Shown here one piece after another: positions 4,889 to 21,650 of a stretch of 22,412 nucleotides of DNA; position 1 is the stretch's first letter, and each line of letters begins with the position of its first letter. Both the position numbers and the translations under genes were made by a program. Under the pieces are notes generated by a model that saw nothing but the letters and a program-made list of their open reading frames with translations, did no database searches and was not told the DNA's origin. Source of the stretch: a virus; IMG/VR virus record IMGVR_UViG_3300033886_000028, positions 1 through 22,412 of that record; one strand, written 5' to 3'.

Positions 4889-6865
4889 CTACTGTAGTCT
4901 TACAAACGGACTCACTTCCACGTTTGTGTTGATGTACTTCGCCTTGTCGGTCACCCGCGGCGTTCCGTCGGCATAGACCGTCAGCCGGTAGGCCGTCTGG
5001 TCAAACTCGAAGTAGGCATCTGCGCTCGCGGCGATCTCGATGTCGCGCACCAACTGGACGGCGTACATCGAGAAGTCGGCCAGTAGCACGTCGCCGGCAG
5101 TGCCGAGCGTATTCACCTTCTCGGTCAGGATGACCGGAATACCCATGAGCGTTCCCGCGATGCCTTCCTGCCAGTTCGGTTGCCAAACCGGGGTATTGCC
5201 GATGGAGAACTGGACGAGCTGTGGCAGCACGGTCGGATGGATCAGCCACACCGCGCGACCGAGCGAACCCGGCATCAAGCGCTCAAGCATTCGCGCTGCG
5301 TCAACCGGTTTGAACTGGTTCGCAGTGTCGCGCGTCACGCTCACCAGCGCCTGGGCGTTCAACACACCGAGTGGTTCGCCTGCGCCATTGCCACGGATGA
5401 AGTAGTAATCAAGGTAGTCCGAAGCGCTTTCAGCCAAGATGCGCCTGATTTGCGCATCAAACGTGGTGCTGGCCAACATGCGATTGCTGACGCGAACGAT
5501 TCCGGCCATCGTCAGCGCGCGCAAGGTGTACTGCTTGAAGGCTGGCTCGGTCTCGGCAATCGCACTGTTCTCGTTCGCCCAGGTGAACTTCACGCCGCCA
5601 TACCAGGCGAACACACCGGATGCGCCCTTGCCTAAGTCAACGACCGGCTGGCGGACAGTTCCGGGTGCATCGGTCACGAACGCACGAGGCAGTACGATGG
5701 ACTGTTCGCTCACAGCGGTCAGCAAATCGGGAAGCAACGTCTCCGGCACAAGGTAGCCCCCCGACGGGCCAGAACCCGTGCCCAGCGCCTTGATAGCTTC
5801 TACGTCCTTGCGCGCGACGGCGCTCATGAAGTCGCGCAAGGTTGCGGTCTTGGTCTCAGTTACGTACATGTGAATCTCCTCTGCTACGCTCTTTCGTGCA
5901 TCCGCCTTGCCTTCCTCGGCGGTGACAACCGCCGAAAGCTCAGCCTCTGGACGCGCGATTGAGCGAATAGCTTCCACAATCTCTACGCCGAGCGTGCGAG
6001 GCTCAGCCGGCGTCGGCGTCAAGGACACCTCAATGATTGGCCAGCGCTCAATCTCACCTGTGCTCTTGCGAGCGACAAGATGACCAGGCGCGCCGGTGCT
6101 CATGCCAAGCGCGCCTTGCTCAGCTAACTGGCGCACGAGCTCGATGTACTTGCTGTGCCGGTCGAGCTCCGCCTTGACCAGCACGCCGATGTTGTCGGCA
6201 TCCATCTGCTCTACGCGCCCTATCACCCGTAGCCCAATCTCAGGATGGATGCCGTGTTCGTACAGGAGCGGTGGGTTGCTCAACCCGAGAAGCTCCGACC
6301 CGAAGTCGGTCTTGCACGTGAAATGCTCGCCGTGCAAGTCGCGCCCGCCGAACACGACCGCGTAGCCTTCAGCGTAGAGCTTGCCCTCGCGCTCATACAC
6401 CTTCACTGCAAACGAGCGAGTCTCTGCCTCTAGGCTGGAGTTTTGAGGATCCGGATCCGGGCCCGGACTCCGCTTTGTATCGAACGAGCGCGTCTCTGTC
6501 TCCTGTTCCTGCTCGCCAAGCAGCTTTTCGAGCGCGTTGCGCGCCTGCGCGAGTAACTCTTCTGGCGCGTCAATTCCCCCGCGCGCGCCGTTCACGGCGG
6601 CCAGCGCAAAGCTCATACCGGATGTGATAAGGCGCGGATTGCCATTCACAATGTCGCCACAGGGGGCGACCAGGTCGCCTTTGGTCGCAGACTCGTCACG
6701 GCGGAAGAGAAACAAGCGCGCAGCGCGCTCGAGCGCTTCGTTGCGCATGTCCTCATCTGCCTCTGTCTCGTATCCGGCCCACGATAGGATGCGTTCGCGC
6801 GCGGCATCTCCGTCCCACTCGCCGCGCTCGATTACAGGAAGATCGGTATCCAGCGTGAATCTCAT
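4889..6865 (-). CDS. Prohead protease - major capsid protein fusion (HK97 type)
   Basis: This is a single 658-residue frame with three parts. Residues 1-115 are a helical domain often found ahead of phage proteases (GEWDGDAARERILSWAG, then LFLFRRDESATKGDLVAPCG). Residues ~150-300 are an S78/U9-type prohead protease (AEGYAVVFGGRDLHGEHFTC), with candidate catalytic His204 in LLYEHG and Ser256 in ALGMSTGA. Residues ~333-658 carry a short delta-like region and then the HK97-fold capsid protein (GGYLVPETLLPDLLTAVSEQ). Normally these are two genes. The linker contains a Pro/Asp-rich stretch and a duplicated ETRSF (residues 124-128 and 148-152), the usual protease start motif, as if a join was made here. 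The ATG shares ATGA with the preceding stop. A strong internal SD and ATG at 5869 should also yield the capsid protein alone. Confidence 0.93.
   Translation of the reverse strand: MRFTLDTDLPVIERGEWDGDAARERILSWAGYETEADEDMRNEALERAARLFLFRRDESATKGDLVAPCGDIVNGNPRLITSGMSFALAAVNGARGGIDAPEELLAQARNALEKLLGEQEQETETRSFDTKRSPGPDPDPQNSSLEAETRSFAVKVYEREGKLYAEGYAVVFGGRDLHGEHFTCKTDFGSELLGLSNPPLLYEHGIHPEIGLRVIGRVEQMDADNIGVLVKAELDRHSKYIELVRQLAEQGALGMSTGAPGHLVARKSTGEIERWPIIEVSLTPTPAEPRTLGVEIVEAIRSIARPEAELSAVVTAEEGKADARKSVAEEIHMYVTETKTATLRDFMSAVARKDVEAIKALGTGSGPSGGYLVPETLLPDLLTAVSEQSIVLPRAFVTDAPGTVRQPVVDLGKGASGVFAWYGGVKFTWANENSAIAETEPAFKQYTLRALTMAGIVRVSNRMLASTTFDAQIRRILAESASDYLDYYFIRGNGAGEPLGVLNAQALVSVTRDTANQFKPVDAARMLERLMPGSLGRAVWLIHPTVLPQLVQFSIGNTPVWQPNWQEGIAGTLMGIPVILTEKVNTLGTAGDVLLADFSMYAVQLVRDIEIAASADAYFEFDQTAYRLTVYADGTPRVTDKAKYINTNVEVSPFVRLQ
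5867..5881 (-). promoter_or_regulatory. Internal SD and in-frame start for free major capsid protein
   Basis: Inside the protease-capsid frame, GAGGAG (5881-5876) stands 6 nt before an in-frame ATG (5869-5867, Met333). It lies exactly where a separate capsid gene would start (MYVTETKTATLRDFMSAV). Initiation here would give a 326-residue capsid protein spanning 4889-5869, beside the 658-residue fusion. The SD is better than the one for the full frame (GGGAG before 6865). That would allow many capsid subunits per protease subunit. Confidence 0.75.
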
Positions 6866-13341: not shown

Positions 13342-13590
13342 TTATAGGCCACGTCTTCCCGGGAGTCGGCGTGCCTTGCTGACGCACGAATAGCACACGC
13401 CCTCGACCGTCGCGCCCAGCTGCGGCGCATGATATGGCCAACGCTCCGGAAGCTGCCAACCACGCACAGTCGCTGAGTTAGGTGAGCGCGCGACGGTCGT
13501 GTAGCCGCACTGCCGGCATCGCACTAAGAGAAGCGGACGGCCAGGGACAACAGGGATGTCGTCGCGGTAACCGGGGGAACTAACTGGCAT
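13342..13590 (-). CDS. Small zinc-ribbon protein downstream of dnaB
   Basis: This 82-residue protein has its start defined by a strong SD, GGAGGTGTTTG-ATG, located inside the end of the helicase gene; the overlap is 11 nt. Two Cys pairs form a zinc ribbon: CRQC in LLLVRCRQCGYTTVAR (residues ~21-35) and CYSC in TVEGVCYSCVSKARR (~62-76). The middle is Trp/Tyr/Pro-rich (GWQLPERWPYHAPQ). It is the last gene of the replication operon. Zinc-ribbon proteins of this size can bind DNA or polymerase partners, and coupling to the helicase gene suggests a replication role, but no family is recognised. Confidence 0.75.
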   Translation of the reverse strand: MPVSSPGYRDDIPVVPGRPLLLVRCRQCGYTTVARSPNSATVRGWQLPERWPYHAPQLGATVEGVCYSCVSKARRLPGRRGL

Positions 13591-14890
13591 CAAACACCTC
13601 CGCAAACGAAGCCTTGGCAGGACAGAAGCCAAGCTGTAACTTCCCGACCGCTCCGTGGCGATTCTTGCGGATTTGGACTTCGATTGTGCGCACGGGCGGC
13701 GGGTTGAGCACGTCGCCAACGTCAGCGCGTTCGAGCACGATAAGCGCATCAGCGTGCTGCTCGATCGCGCGAGACTCGCGCACTTCTCCAGCGTCGTTGA
13801 CCTGTGAGCCGGCTACGATGGACATGCCGAGCTGACCGGCCAGCGTCTTCAGCGCGAGCGCGACTTCTGCGACTTCCTGCTCGCGATTCTGGTCTCGGCG
13901 CGTACGACCATCCACAAGCTGGATGTAGTCCACGATTGCGAGCTTCGCGCCACGAAGCGCATGATGGCGCAGAAGGTGGCGCAGCTGGCTGACCGAGATA
14001 CCAGGTCTGTACTCGATGGCAATCGGCATCCTGGAAACCTGGTCAGCAGCGTCCATCAGCCGGCGACGCTGTTCAGCGCGCGTGCGCTCGTCCAGCGCTA
14101 GCACGTCTGCTGGAGATAGGCTGATGCCGGCGTGACGACTAAGCATCACGCGGCAAACTTCCGGCTCGGTCATCTCGCACGAGACGATGACGACAGGATG
14201 GCCGGCTCGTGCGGCAGACAGAGCCATCTGCAACATCAGCGTGGTCTTTCCAGCACCCGGCTTGCCGGCGACCACGGTCAGCCTACCAGGACATAGGCTA
14301 CCCAGGATGCGGTCAAGCGCACTCAGACCGGTGGGCATTCCAGGCAGCCGCTCGCCTGCGCTGTCGTAGTCAGCGATGCAGTGCAGGAGCGCGTCAGAGA
14401 GCGACACGACCTGCCGCGCGCCGGTCGTGAGCGCAGACAGCCGGTCGGCGGCGTACATGGGCAGATCGTCACGCCCTTGATGGGCGGCTTCTGCGATCTC
14501 CTGTGCAATGCGCATCGCCGTTCGGCGCTGCCAGTCGCGGTACACAATCTCCGCGTAATGGCGAACGTGTAACGCAGTAGGCACGACGCAGCACAATTCA
14601 GCGATGTAAGGCTCGCCGCCTATGTCGTCTAAGTGACCTTGCGTGCGCAGCTCATCGGAGAGCGAGAGCAGGTCAACTGGAGCGCCGCGCGCAAACAACG
14701 AGAGTAGCGCTTCAAAGATGCGCTGGTGGCGAAATTCGTAGAAGTGTTCGGGCCTGAGCAAGTCGGCCAGAACTGCTAGAGCTTCAGGGTCAATGATGGC
14801 TGAGCCTAGCGCTGATTGTTCGGCTTCCTCGCTGTATATGGGGGTGATGTCGATAGGATGTGGCTTAGTTCCGTTTCGGCTTGCGTACAT
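13580..14890 (-). CDS. dnaB: Replicative DNA helicase, DnaB family
   Basis: I chose the ATG at 14890, preceded by GAGAGGAGG; ATG 14908 and TTG 14917 are alternatives. The 436-residue product has the DnaB N-terminal domain (SEEAEQSALGSAIIDPEALA, then FYEFRHQRIFEALLSL). The RecA-like domain has Walker A GKPGAGKT (209-216), the VSCEM motif, Walker B LAIVDYIQLV (Asp321) and a late RKNRHGAVG motif that contacts DNA. It is a little shorter than bacterial DnaB (about 450-470). Having its own helicase next to a lambda-O-like initiator means the phage may not need the host DnaB or a P-like loader. It overlaps the initiator gene by 26 nt. Confidence 0.95.
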   Translation of the reverse strand: MYASRNGTKPHPIDITPIYSEEAEQSALGSAIIDPEALAVLADLLRPEHFYEFRHQRIFEALLSLFARGAPVDLLSLSDELRTQGHLDDIGGEPYIAELCCVVPTALHVRHYAEIVYRDWQRRTAMRIAQEIAEAAHQGRDDLPMYAADRLSALTTGARQVVSLSDALLHCIADYDSAGERLPGMPTGLSALDRILGSLCPGRLTVVAGKPGAGKTTLMLQMALSAARAGHPVVIVSCEMTEPEVCRVMLSRHAGISLSPADVLALDERTRAEQRRRLMDAADQVSRMPIAIEYRPGISVSQLRHLLRHHALRGAKLAIVDYIQLVDGRTRRDQNREQEVAEVALALKTLAGQLGMSIVAGSQVNDAGEVRESRAIEQHADALIVLERADVGDVLNPPPVRTIEVQIRKNRHGAVGKLQLGFCPAKASFAEVFDAS

Positions 14891-15734
14891 ATCCTCCTCT
14901 CTCCTCATCGTAAACAAGTTCGTATTCGTTCTGTACCGAGCGGATTGCGCTCAGGTTGACTATCGCGCCCGGCCAGGTGCAGATTAGGCCAGCCTTACGC
15001 GCTTCTTCGCGCGCAGCCTTGAGCCGCGCTTCGTCGCAGCGCAACTCGTGCAGCGTCTCTGCGGCCTTCGCCCAGCGTTTCTTGTCACCCCTGGTCGGCG
15101 CGACCTCAAAGACGCGGGCGAAGGCGAGGCACTGCGCTTCCAGGTGCGAAGGAAGTGACCACGCGCGGATGGTTCGCTCGGCTGGGTCGTGGCCGTCCAG
15201 TCGATCTAGCACGTGGTCAAGATAGTCGCGGGTCTTTTCGTTCGCGCTTTCGCGCGAGTGCGAGAGCGCGCGCTCATCGCGCGCGCTCTCTTGTTTGTTG
15301 TCTGTATATGTATGTTGTGGGTGGAATTTTTCCACCAGTAGCGGTGGAATTTTTCCACCAGTAGCGGTGGAATTTTTCCACCACCCCCCTTCTTCTGCCT
15401 CCTCTACTGGTGGAATTTTTCCACTAGCTAGTGGTGGAATTTTTCCACCAGTAGATGGCGGGATAACACATGCGTAAGACGCCGCCTTACTGCCTGCCGC
15501 GGCTTGTGTTTGCGCAACCAGCCCACGTTCGAGCAGTCCTCGCAGCCCTTTGATCACGCTCTTCCTGTCAAGGCCAGTCATCTGCTCAAGCTGAGACAAA
15601 CTTATCTCGTCGCTCTCCTTTCGCCATCCCACAGTTCTGCGCAGAATGGCAAGCAGAACCTTAAGCTCTACGCCCGACAGGTCAGCAAGATGCTCAAAGT
15701 AAGCGTTAGGCACTGGCACGAATCCTTCTGTCAT
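14865..15734 (-). CDS. Replication initiator, phage O-like N-terminal domain, with iterons inside the gene
   Basis: The start ATG at 15734 shares ATGA with the clamp-like gene, giving 289 residues. Residues ~4-75 match the phage replication protein O winged-helix domain (FVPVPNAYFEHLADLSGVEL, ILRRTVGWRKESDEISLSQL, GLDRKSVIKGLRGLLERGLV). Residues ~93-140 are a low-complexity linker encoded by five copies of a 17-bp palindrome, read as GGKIPP, SGKIPP, WWKNST, GGKIPP and VEKFHP. Residues ~165-289 are a charged helical region (KKRWAKAAETLHELRCDEAR, then LKAAREEARKAGLICTWPG), likely the helicase-contacting part. As in lambda, the initiator probably binds the iterons in its own gene through the winged helix and loads the helicase encoded next. 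Confidence 0.88.
   Translation of the reverse strand: MTEGFVPVPNAYFEHLADLSGVELKVLLAILRRTVGWRKESDEISLSQLEQMTGLDRKSVIKGLRGLLERGLVAQTQAAAGSKAASYACVIPPSTGGKIPPLASGKIPPVEEAEEGGWWKNSTATGGKIPPLLVEKFHPQHTYTDNKQESARDERALSHSRESANEKTRDYLDHVLDRLDGHDPAERTIRAWSLPSHLEAQCLAFARVFEVAPTRGDKKRWAKAAETLHELRCDEARLKAAREEARKAGLICTWPGAIVNLSAIRSVQNEYELVYDEERGGYVRKPKRN
15262..15290. repeat. 12-bp perfect hairpin beside the iterons
   Basis: GAGAGCGCGCGC and GCGCGCGCTCTC pair perfectly around TCATC. It is followed by an AT-richer stretch (15291-15319, TTGTTTGTTGTCTGTATATG...) and then the first iteron. The order iterons, AT-rich segment, inverted repeat resembles the lambda origin. It lies within the initiator gene. Confidence 0.6.
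15320..15449. repeat. Five palindromic iterons: candidate replication origin
   Basis: GGTGGAATTTTTCCACC occurs at 15320, 15343, 15366 and 15433 exactly, and at 15409 with one terminal change (ends CACT). Each is a perfect inverted repeat (7-bp arms, TTT centre). Spacings are 23, 23, 43 and 24 bp, so the repeats fall in all three reading frames of the initiator gene. The perfect palindrome CCACTAGCTAGTGG (15421-15434) joins copies 4 and 5. Conservation at the DNA level regardless of frame marks them as protein-binding sites. Confidence 0.9.
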
Positions 15735-16363
15735 CGTTTCTTCCTCATCTCCGCGATGTAATGGCGTTCGTGCTCGGATGCCAGCATGAGAATGTGCGTG
15801 CCCTTGAATCGCACCATCGCTATGCCGACCTTGTCTCTCGCTATCAGGTTCTTGACGGCCTCGGCAAGATACCGAGTATTCAGGCCGATGCGTCCAGGTA
15901 GCGTTAGCTCGGCAGGGATGACGACCTTCCCCAGCTCTCCTGTGCATTCGATGCTCTCTTCGCCGATAACGAGCTCACAGTACAGCTCATAGATAGCCAT
16001 TGACCTTGCATACAGCTTTGTGAGTGACCTAAGATCACTAACTCGCGCGATAGCCAAAGCAACCTTTTCTGCTTCTTCAAGCGAGCGCAGTGTTTCCACA
16101 CGCCAATCACCCAATGGAAGCGCGCTTATTTTGTTCCTCTCTAGAGCTTCGCCAAGTGACTTTGCGTTTCGCAGCACGCATGCAGGAACAGCCCATGCCA
16201 TCTTTTCAAATTCATGCTTCCCTCGCGCAATCACGCGCGAGGCGCGGAATTGACTGATTGACCACGCCTGAATTGAGTCGTCATCCGCGACTTGCACGAC
16301 CACGTCACCATCAGGATGTAGTTCGTCAACCGTGTAGAGCACCTTCTTCAGTTTTGCGATCAT
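15731..16363 (-). CDS. Divergent sliding-clamp-like protein B (DnaN C-terminal-like)
   Basis: This 210-residue protein has an SD GAGGAG 7 nt before the ATG and a 4-nt ATGA overlap with the preceding gene. The C-terminal ~60 residues resemble domain III of bacterial beta clamps: KVVIPAELTLPGRIGLNTRY, LAEAVKNLIARDKVGIAMV, and a terminal strand HERHYIAEMRKK that matches the clamp ending 'Y.IMPMR'. The N-terminal half (MIAKLKKVLYTVDELHPDGD) is less clear. At 210 residues it is about two clamp domains, not three. If real, it would hold a polymerase on DNA, possibly host polymerase III. Assignment is by my reading of the pattern and remains tentative. Confidence 0.55.
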   Translation of the reverse strand: MIAKLKKVLYTVDELHPDGDVVVQVADDDSIQAWSISQFRASRVIARGKHEFEKMAWAVPACVLRNAKSLGEALERNKISALPLGDWRVETLRSLEEAEKVALAIARVSDLRSLTKLYARSMAIYELYCELVIGEESIECTGELGKVVIPAELTLPGRIGLNTRYLAEAVKNLIARDKVGIAMVRFKGTHILMLASEHERHYIAEMRKKR

Positions 16364-16974
16364 CGCTCTTCTCCTCTAGGAATGAAAGCCGTGAACCCGT
16401 TGCGATAATCAAACACATAGTGAGCCTCTGTGCCCAGCGAGATTTTGAGCGCGCGTGCGTTTCGATGCCCTAAGATGTCCACGTGTGCCGTCTCGTCGCG
16501 CGGCATCTGCTCGAAGGCGAGACGCAGCGGCCTACTCCTCACGAGCATTTCTGCGCTGTACAGGGCGATTCCGCCCAGCGGCACACCGTGGATGCTTAGT
16601 CCTTTGTCGTCAATGTTCACCGTCTTCGTTCCATCATCCGGGAGAAAGCTCAACGCCCATCGCAGCGCGTTCGTCTCGACGATGACACTTGCGAGGTTCT
16701 TGTGGTCTTCCATCACGTCGCAGATGTGGGGATAGCTGTCAACGAAGCCGTAGTTAGCAGCGGCTGCCTCGATCTCCTCTGGTGACCGCAAGCCATACAG
16801 GCGCTCGCACGGCACGACGTATCGCGTCTTTCTTCGCGTTTTAGTCGGCCACGTGTACTTCGCGGCCTGCTCGGCGTTGGACGCGAACAAATACAGCCGG
16901 CATCGCTCGGTACCGACAATCACGTTAGACGTAGCGCAGTAGAACAGGTTTTGGGGATACTGATTCTGATTCAT
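16360..16974 (-). CDS. Sliding-clamp-like or replication accessory protein A
   Basis: This 204-residue protein has a strong SD (AAAGGAG, 6 nt before the ATG). The N-terminal half (VIVGTERCRLYLFASNAEQA, then ETRRKTRYVV-like basic stretch) is unassigned. The C-terminal half has a beta-clamp-like order: a helix after a strand (SVIVETNALRWALSFLPDDG), TKTVNIDDKGLSIHGVPLGG, RPLRLAFEQMP, and the final strand pair KISLGTEAHYVFDYRNGFTA ending FIPRG. This echoes the end of the next protein. Both may be parts of one clamp that has been split, or tandem divergent copies. Position between regulator and initiator supports a replication role. The clamp link is uncertain. Confidence 0.45.
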   Translation of the reverse strand: MNQNQYPQNLFYCATSNVIVGTERCRLYLFASNAEQAAKYTWPTKTRRKTRYVVPCERLYGLRSPEEIEAAAANYGFVDSYPHICDVMEDHKNLASVIVETNALRWALSFLPDDGTKTVNIDDKGLSIHGVPLGGIALYSAEMLVRSRPLRLAFEQMPRDETAHVDILGHRNARALKISLGTEAHYVFDYRNGFTAFIPRGEER

Positions 16975-18030: not shown

Positions 18031-18423
18031 ATGAACGAGAAGATGAACGAAACCATGACCCTAGACGACCTGATTCGACGTGGCGTTGAAATCCGCGAGA
18101 AGCGGATCGCCGAGGAGCGCGCGCGAATAGCCGCATTCCATGAGCAGCTCGCTCGTGAGAGTGCAGAACGCGAACGCGAGATTCGCGCGATTCTTCCCGC
18201 ACCGCTCGACGACCTCGCGGAAGTGGATGCCGGCGTCACCCACGCATACATCTACGTCCGAAAACCCTTCCCTGGGGAGGGCAAGGTAAGGATTTATGCG
18301 TCGAAGAAGGACGACCAGTGGCATCTGCTTGAGTTCGCCGCTTACAACCCGGACGGCTATTATCTCAAGTTCCAGACGCTCGAAGAAGCCTTAGCGTTTG
18401 CAGCAGGAGCGCTGGAAATATAG
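18031..18423 (+). CDS. Hypothetical protein with N-terminal coiled coil
   Basis: This 130-residue protein has a perfect AAAGGAGG SD 5 nt before the ATG. Residues ~10-55 are a long, highly charged helix (EIREKRIAEERARIAAFHEQ, then LARESAEREREIRA), likely a coiled coil. Residues ~65-130 look like a small alpha/beta domain: strands THAYIYVRKP, GKVRIYASKK and WHLLEFAAY, then a helix QTLEEALAFAAGALEI. I know no named family for it. It is encoded just before the annealing protein gene, so it may be a partner in recombination, but this is only an inference from order. Confidence 0.7.
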   Translation: MNEKMNETMTLDDLIRRGVEIREKRIAEERARIAAFHEQLARESAEREREIRAILPAPLDDLAEVDAGVTHAYIYVRKPFPGEGKVRIYASKKDDQWHLLEFAAYNPDGYYLKFQTLEEALAFAAGALEI

Positions 18424-18434
18424 TGAGAAGTGCC

Positions 18435-19106
18435 ATGAACGAGATAACCCCTACCAATCCCGTGAACGCTAGCGCACTAGAGCGCGTCTTGGTCGCCGGC
18501 GACCTGGCCGGCCTAAACGAGGCGCAGCGCATCGAGTACTACAAAGCAGTCTGCGAGTCGCTCGGCTTGAACCCGCTGACCCGTCCGTTCGAGTATCTCA
18601 GGTTGAACGGTCGCCTGGTTTTGTATGCCACCCGCGCGGCAGCCGACCAACTTAGAGCAATCCACGGTATAAGCATCCTGGATGTGCGGATCGAGCAGAA
18701 AGACGATCTGGTCATCGTTACCGTTCGCGGCCGCACTCGTGATGGGCGCGAAGACGTGGAAGTTGGTGCGGTGTCTGTTGCTGGCCTGCGCGGTGATGCG
18801 CTGGCCAATGCGCAAATGAAAGCGCTGACCAAGGCCAAGCGTCGGCTCACGCTTAGTTTGGCCGGTCTCGGCTGGCTGGACGAGACCGAGACGGATTCCG
18901 TGCCCGGCGCTCAGCGCGTGAGCGAGCAGCAGCTTGCGCTAGCGCCAGAAGTCCAGGAGCTACGCCAGCAGCTAGCAGAGCGCGCAAAGGAACTGCCTGC
19001 GGATTCCCCGCTGCGCGAGAGAGCACGCGAGGCGTGGCGGTCAGGCGATGCTGATGTGATAAGAGAAGTTCTTAGTTCCATAGAAGGAGGGAAGAAAGAT
19101 GAATAG
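18435..19106 (+). CDS. RecT-like single-strand annealing protein (probable)
   Basis: I chose the ATG at 18435 (MNEITPTNPVNASALERVLV); a GTG at 18423 is in frame but overlaps the previous stop. The product has 223 residues. The middle matches phage single-strand annealing proteins of the RecT/Red-beta type: EYYKAVCESLGLNPLTRPFE, RLNGRLVLYATRAAADQLRA, DLVIVTVRGRTRDGREDVEV, and ANAQMKALTKAKRRLTLSLA followed by GLGWLDETE. The last of these is common in phage members. Such proteins anneal complementary strands during replication-linked recombination. The C-terminal ~70 residues are charged helices. No exonuclease partner is recognised nearby. The neighbouring 19099 gene, overlapping by 8 nt, could fill that place but shows no nuclease motif. 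Confidence 0.7.
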   Translation: MNEITPTNPVNASALERVLVAGDLAGLNEAQRIEYYKAVCESLGLNPLTRPFEYLRLNGRLVLYATRAAADQLRAIHGISILDVRIEQKDDLVIVTVRGRTRDGREDVEVGAVSVAGLRGDALANAQMKALTKAKRRLTLSLAGLGWLDETETDSVPGAQRVSEQQLALAPEVQELRQQLAERAKELPADSPLRERAREAWRSGDADVIREVLSSIEGGKKDE

Positions 19107-20543: not shown

Positions 20544-20817
20544 GGCGGTGAAGGTCGCTCGGCTGGCAGACCTGCCGGTAGCCAAAGCGCTGAAGGCTCT
20601 TGCCGATATGCCTGAGGCAAGAGCCTTCCAGATCGAGCCTGAGGTGCTCCGCCGGATACTGCTCGAAAGCCTGCCGGAGCAGTATGCCACCTTTCTGTTC
20701 GATCAGGCCGGTTACCGCGTCGAAATGTCGCTCGCTGATCTCGCTTACTTCGCCAGATACGATGAGATATTAGCAGAGCTGGCAATCTCGGTAATCCTGT
20801 ATCTGGATAAGGAATGA
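20512..20817 (+). CDS. Hypothetical helical protein
   Basis: This 101-residue protein starts at ATG 20512 (a second ATG follows at once), with GGAGG 8 nt upstream, inside the end of the DUF1874 gene. It is all-helical in appearance: basic N-terminus MMNRSLRKLREAVKVARLAD, then LPVAKALKALADMPEARAFQ, ILLESLPEQYATFLFDQAGY and a C-terminal DEILAELAISVILYLDKE. No family is recognised. It overlaps the AAA+ gene by 4 nt (ATGA), which suggests a link to the ATPase module that follows. Confidence 0.7.
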   Translation: MMNRSLRKLREAVKVARLADLPVAKALKALADMPEARAFQIEPEVLRRILLESLPEQYATFLFDQAGYRVEMSLADLAYFARYDEILAELAISVILYLDKE

Positions 20818-21650
20818 TCATGTTTGCGTCCTGGTACACCCCCCGACCATCCGACCGCTTAGCTGCTCGCCTGCTAACAGAGCGAGCCGACGACGGCGTG
20901 CGCGCGTGCATCATCACAGGCGCGCCTGGAGTGGGCAAGACATCGTTCGCACGCGCCCTCGCCGAGAGCATGGGTGGGAGGTTGGTCGAGTACTATGCCC
21001 ACCACTGGACTTCAGACGAAGACTTATTCGTTGCTATTGACCCAGCGCGCGTTGCGGCCATTGCCGGAGGCCACGACATGCCGCTCAGCAAGACATACCG
21101 GCGCGGCGCGCTTCTACGCGCTACGCTGTTGTCGCGGCGAATGCCGGTCGTCCTGCTCCTGGATGAGTGGGATAAAGCTCCAGAGCATTGCGATGCTTTG
21201 CTTCTGGAGTTTCTCCAGAGCGGCACAGTACATGGCAGGCACGGCGAGCGCTGGCGCGCAAACACGCGCCAACTTGCCGTGGTCATCACCAGCAATGGCT
21301 TGCGCGAATTGATTGAGCCGCTTCAGCGGCGGTGCTTTCGGTATGAGATGCCTTATTTGCCGCCGCAGGTTGAGTCAGATGTGCTTCGCAAGGCCACTGG
21401 CGCGCCCGTCGGCGCGATCAGGTTGGTCGTGAAGGCGATGAACCTGATTCGTGCGAATGGTCGCTCGTCCCCGTCTTTGCAGGAAGGCATGATGTTGCTA
21501 CGCGGGATGGTGCTGGCGAACGGAGTGGATGAAGTGCGCCTGCTTGTCCGTGGGTATCTGTTGAAGGATGCCCAGGATGAAGGTGCGTTGAAGTCCTTGG
21601 GTGATCTTCCAGTGCTGCTATGGGGAGAGTGGCGGCGTGGCAATAAATAG
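20814..21650 (+). CDS. MoxR/CobS-type AAA+ ATPase
   Basis: This 278-residue AAA+ protein shares ATGA with the gene before it; AAGGA precedes the start. Motifs: Walker A GAPGVGKT (36-43), Walker B VVLLLDEWDKA (Asp117-Glu118), sensor 1 VVITSNG (157-162), and a candidate arginine finger in PLQRRCFRYEMP (~172). The long insert before Walker B (HHWTSDEDLFVAIDPARVAA, then SKTYRRGALLRATLLSRR) fits the MoxR/CobS group. In cells these work with a VWA-domain partner, as in CobS/CobT cobalt chelatase or MoxR complexes, remodelling metal-enzyme or membrane targets. Phages often carry such pairs with unknown targets. The partner gene here overlaps the end by 14 nt. Confidence 0.88.
   Translation: MIMFASWYTPRPSDRLAARLLTERADDGVRACIITGAPGVGKTSFARALAESMGGRLVEYYAHHWTSDEDLFVAIDPARVAAIAGGHDMPLSKTYRRGALLRATLLSRRMPVVLLLDEWDKAPEHCDALLLEFLQSGTVHGRHGERWRANTRQLAVVITSNGLRELIEPLQRRCFRYEMPYLPPQVESDVLRKATGAPVGAIRLVVKAMNLIRANGRSSPSLQEGMMLLRGMVLANGVDEVRLLVRGYLLKDAQDEGALKSLGDLPVLLWGEWRRGNK

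Follow-up and report, generated by a model that had tools for sequence, protein, structure and literature searches.

The best-described counterpart of the locus analyzed here is the replication origin of phage λ, which lies inside gene O and in which O dimers on four iterons open an AT-rich tract (PMC7466680, PMC3349717, PMC6022878). The λ ori spans positions 39034-39160 within O, and each of its iterons is bound by an O dimer (PMC3349717, PMC6022878). A flexible linker connects the two domains of λ O, and O proteins that carry in-frame deletions of ori can still complement (PMC6022878). The λ record J02459 annotates four 18-bp iterons within the O gene at 39034-39118; beyond them come an A-rich tract and then the inverted repeat GTCAGAGAATTC / GAATCCTCTGAC. 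In P22 (genes 18 and 12) and D3 (orf73 and orf74), an O-type initiator directly precedes a phage DnaB-type helicase, and P22 has iterons within the initiator gene (half-site TTAGC in the P22-like L162). The initiator of Salmonella phage L, gene 18, is predicted to bind distinct in-gene repeats, an 11-bp imprecise motif (PMC8022706). According to the same paper, λ, P22, and L appear to use different iterons each, and this diversity of in-gene iterons among the O proteins of the three phages is already published.

We analyzed a phage DNA stretch of 22,412 bp (IMGVR_UViG_3300033886_000028), here called the window, and consider it highly probable that it carries the λ-like replication origin of a tailed phage inside an O-type initiator gene. 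The features of the locus, in window coordinates, are as follows.

14865..15734, minus strand: O-type replication initiator gene, 289 aa (PF04492, TIGR01610, PHROG O-like)
15459..15734, minus strand: predicted N-terminal winged-helix DNA-binding domain, residues 1-92 (family matches span residues 2-78)
15531..15569, minus strand: predicted recognition-helix codons, residues 56-68, DRKSVIKGLRGLL (segment that best tracks the iterons across 73 O genes; model helix 57-69)
15433..15449, minus strand: iteron 1 in gene order, GGTGGAAAAATTCCACC, frame 0, encoding GGKIPP
15409..15425, minus strand: iteron 2, AGTGGAAAAATTCCACC, outermost base different, frame 0, encoding SGKIPP
15366..15382, minus strand: iteron 3, GGTGGAAAAATTCCACC, frame 1, encoding WWKNST
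15343..15359, minus strand: iteron 4, GGTGGAAAAATTCCACC, frame 0, encoding GGKIPP
15320..15336, minus strand: iteron 5, GGTGGAAAAATTCCACC, frame 2, encoding VEKFHP
15291..15319, minus strand: AT-rich, A-rich tract, candidate unwinding element (20 of 29 bases A/T; position as in λ ori)
15262..15290, no strand assigned: inverted repeat with 12-bp stem and 5-nt loop (z -4.9; position as that of the λ inverted repeat)
14865..15245, minus strand: C-terminal helical region of O, presumed to contact the helicase (model helices 164-247; mostly identical among relatives)
13580..14917, minus strand: DnaB-type replicative helicase gene (PF03796, 1.5e-47; PF00772, 1e-29), overlapping the O stop

Five 17-bp repeats of the form GGTGGAATTTTTCCAC(C/T) occupy the middle of the O gene, about 300-400 nt into it, and are spread over all three reading frames. 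Four of the five are identical, and the copy at 15409 has a terminal T for C. Searching the whole window with up to 3 mismatches returned exactly these five sites (0.44 expected from shuffles), and the 15-bp core GTGGAATTTTTCCAC occurs exactly five times as well (0.04 expected with 2 mismatches allowed). When the O gene was redrawn 20,000 times with synonymous codons, the maximum was two iteron copies per gene; because the redraws never exceeded that number, the repeats need an explanation other than the protein sequence. The initial annotation had argued from the three frames that selection on the protein could not explain them, which the redraws confirm, and the peptides that it listed (GGKIPP, WWKNST, and VEKFHP) are indeed encoded, with SGKIPP as an additional one from iteron 2. 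It had also described five palindromes kept base for base; the five sites in three frames stand, but the 15409 copy departs from this at its outermost base. Its description of the iteron as fully symmetric was wrong: symmetry is confined to the arms, GGTGGAA/TTCCACC, and the central TTT (plus strand) is asymmetric and has the same orientation in every copy.

The surroundings of the iterons follow the plan of λ, with mid-gene iterons in an O-family gene, an AT-rich tract on the same side of them, and an inverted repeat beyond, in the same order and on the same gene strand. The AT-rich tract adjoins the iterons and is 69% A/T over 29 bp, in a window of about 59% G+C, and the arms of the inverted repeat (15262-15273 and 15279-15290) form a perfect 12-bp stem; both elements had been noted beside the iterons from the sequence alone, and both were found there. 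The two origins differ in half-site (TCCCT in λ, GTGGA in the window), in iteron number (four in λ, five with perfect arms in the window), and in the hairpin, which is longer and GC-rich in the window. They also differ in the gene that follows O, which encodes the loader P in λ and a DnaB-type helicase in the window. In this last respect, and in having iterons within the initiator gene, the window resembles P22, and it shares the initiator-helicase order with D3; its iteron sequence is unrelated to theirs, and the N-terminal domains are about 37-40% identical. Because the order of iterons, AT-rich tract, and inverted repeat matches λ ori and the next gene encodes a DnaB helicase, the site is, judged from its sequence, very probably an origin of the λ/P22 type. 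Some points count against an origin, as the AT-rich tract is short (29 bp versus 38 bp in λ), the hairpin of one relative (L011) is imperfect, and GC skew, proposed earlier as a check, gave no support: near 15.2 kb it passes from plus to minus, the reverse of the sign change conventionally seen at origins, in a test that is poor for a 22-kb fragment with mixed transcription.

The same repeats might instead be operator or handcuffing sites used by O to repress the expression of itself or of the helicase, with the true origin located elsewhere. The winged-helix fold is common in transcription regulators, MarR-type folds are among the weak matches to the modeled domain, and the palindromic sites of a dimer would look identical. 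However, the sites lie about 300-400 nt inside the gene and not at a promoter, the AT-rich tract and hairpin come next in the order of λ ori, and the motif has no further copies in the window. The arrangement also recurs in many O genes, including that of λ with its established ori function, and we regard the operator explanation as unlikely.

Matches to PF04492 (44.7 bits against a cutoff of 28.7; 2e-11), TIGR01610 (48.0 bits against a cutoff of 45.5; 1.3e-12), and the PHROG O-like family (2.5e-17) place the encoded protein in the phage O family. An AlphaFold2 model of its N-terminal part contains helices at residues 10-16, 21-34, 46-53, and 57-69 and strands at 73-77 and 86-89, with pLDDT of about 66-82 over residues 11-90. 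The order of these elements over residues 10-89 is that of a winged helix, in keeping with the O-like winged-helix initiator that had been proposed for this gene. A fold search with the model gave winged-helix matches that are weak by E-value (best 5.7e-3), and searching by sequence turned up no convincing solved structure for any O relative. Residues 94-182, in whose coding region the iterons, the AT-rich tract, and the hairpin lie, have no confident structure in the model; in λ O, likewise, a flexible linker joins the DNA-binding and C-terminal domains. The iterons would fit inside the O gene because they encode such a linker between two protein domains.

A centromere-like partition site of a plasmid-like prophage, bound by the O-type protein, would be another way to read the repeats, and TubR and another centromere-binding protein do appear among the weak fold matches. 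We consider this very improbable, since the protein exceeds the curated cutoffs of the phage O family, its neighbor is a DnaB helicase and neither ParA nor TubZ, and the window also carries genes for phage packaging and head formation (terminase, portal, and major head protein). The λ-like origin is the reading that we retain; it had been put forward in the initial annotation, and O-family membership, the adjacent DnaB helicase gene, and the covariation among relatives described below all argue for it. By analogy with λ, dimers of the N-terminal winged-helix domain would use the recognition helix to bind the five palindromic iterons, and the resulting nucleoprotein complex would strain and open the adjoining AT-rich tract. 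The covariation of iterons and recognition helix lends the proposed dimer binding indirect support. The C-terminal part of O, presumed from the same analogy to be the helicase-contacting part, would then bring the phage-encoded DnaB helicase to the opened strand, with no loader P encoded directly after O.

Four related phage contigs (L005, L006, L007, and L011) were found. Their O proteins are 65-90% identical to that of the window and keep the same architecture with half-site GTGGA, GGGTCAA, or GTGCA, and in all four an ORF with the same N-terminal sequence as the window helicase follows O. The repeats remain palindromic in the relatives, and the half-site switches jointly with the predicted recognition helix: the iterons of L006 and L011 are GGGTCAA-N3-TTGACCC, those of L007 are GTGCA-N5-TGCAC in six copies, and the recognition helices of the window and its relatives are DRKSVIKG, ARNSVR(T/A)G, and ARHSVIAG. 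The hairpin and the C terminus are largely preserved despite these switches; the hairpin is strong in L005, L006, and L007, with a paired change that preserves the stem in L005, and the DNA of the AT-rich tract is identical or nearly so in L005 and L006. The window and L006 differ mainly at nt 180-420 of the gene, from the recognition helix to the last iteron, where identity is 47-68%, and just past nt 420 it is 97% in the AT-rich tract and hairpin. Compared with L005, which has the same iteron type, no part of the O gene is better conserved than nt 120-420 (93-100%). A palindrome altered in step with the recognition helix, which had been suggested as a check, was seen among these relatives, and the covariation extends to the 73 O genes considered below. 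The pattern that would have spoken against an origin, drift of the DNA with the peptide conserved, is absent, as L005 (90% identical) keeps its GTGGA/TCCAC arms in five of five copies and several of the encoded peptides are altered. That the repeats mirror a repeated peptide, their DNA having no role, we reject on the frame test and the synonymous redraws and give almost no credence: three of the five copies do share a frame and nearly the same peptide, but the remaining two lie in the two other frames, and L005 keeps the arms while changing the peptides.

In L007, directly upstream of the O gene and separated from it by one stop codon, a copy of the DNA-binding domain of O stands on its own (5998-6285). 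The helix of this copy, DRKSVIAG, is near the window type, and the O gene beside it encodes ARHSVIAG and contains GTGCA iterons; a search of the L007 locus for the window-type palindrome found none. From its sequence, the stand-alone domain could have been left over from a switch in specificity or be a small regulator in its own right.

We collected further O genes via PF04492 from genome, phage, and plasmid records and obtained 134 unique genes after reduction; a search of the genome collection with a mixed N-terminal alignment had yielded one locus only. Spaced-palindrome families (log10 E < -4) were present in 56 of the 134 O genes; the 71 other ORFs examined at these loci contained none. 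At a looser threshold, 231 of 238 palindrome sites lay 240-540 nt from the domain start, and most sites were 15-17 bp in length with a spacing of 21-24 bp. Among pairs of proteins with similar backbones, iteron distance is small if the recognition helix is alike and larger if it is not (0.10 versus 0.33-0.36 at a backbone similarity of 0.6-0.8). In a blind sliding-window scan of the N-terminal domain (73 genes, 282 pairs, neutral clustering, 200 permutations), the recognition helix ranked first, with a partial Spearman rho of 0.67, compared with 0.25 for the permuted maximum and 0.39 for the best off-helix window; with strict iterons (47 genes), these values were 0.76, 0.42, and 0.58. Helix positions +6, +1, +3, and +4 had been among the highest ranked in an earlier scan whose clustering was biased in that it kept near-identical proteins with different iterons, and the covariation itself held when the scan was repeated with neutral clustering. 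The window and its relatives also differ at positions +1, +3, and +6, among others. Phylogeny dominated the mutual information of individual residues and bases, from which no residue-base code could be resolved. One O gene of the collection (L083) has five palindromes in a single frame, 316-412 nt from the domain start and with an exact 24-bp spacing; there, unlike in the window, the DNA repeat is also a peptide repeat.

We lean toward a model in which a short recognition-helix stretch, chiefly at the residues equivalent to D56, K58, S59, and I61 of the window protein, sets the half-site, and in which helix and iterons switch as one small module while the remaining replication machinery stays the same; L007 may have caught such a switch midway. 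With binding sites present in every O gene, the O family would then amount to a ready-made collection of matched protein-DNA pairs. The probable origin of the window is in itself ordinary for phages of its type, and the comparative result is the weightier one. The covariation offers independent evidence, drawn from comparison of genes, that the N-terminal helix probably reads the in-gene repeats. It suggests that the origin specificity of O-type phages is readable, and eventually predictable, from the gene alone. With helix codons and iterons within about 300 bp of one gene, initiator and origin can change specificity without a mismatch. This family-wide, helix-localized covariation may be new; no report of it was found in the literature searched, a search with most subscription journals outside its reach.

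Two overlapping genes of the window, upstream of O on the minus strand (15731-16363 and 16360-16974) have no Pfam or NCBIfam match and at most a marginal PHROG match; by eye, some of their segments may resemble sliding-clamp fragments. One of the pair, a 210-aa gene, is apparently absent from L007 and L011. On the plus strand, a 227-aa gene at 18423-19106 lacks a confident family match and by eye may resemble phage single-strand annealing-type proteins, and a gene at 20814-21650 encodes an AAA ATPase that weakly matches models of the clamp-loader and MoxR/MadB types.
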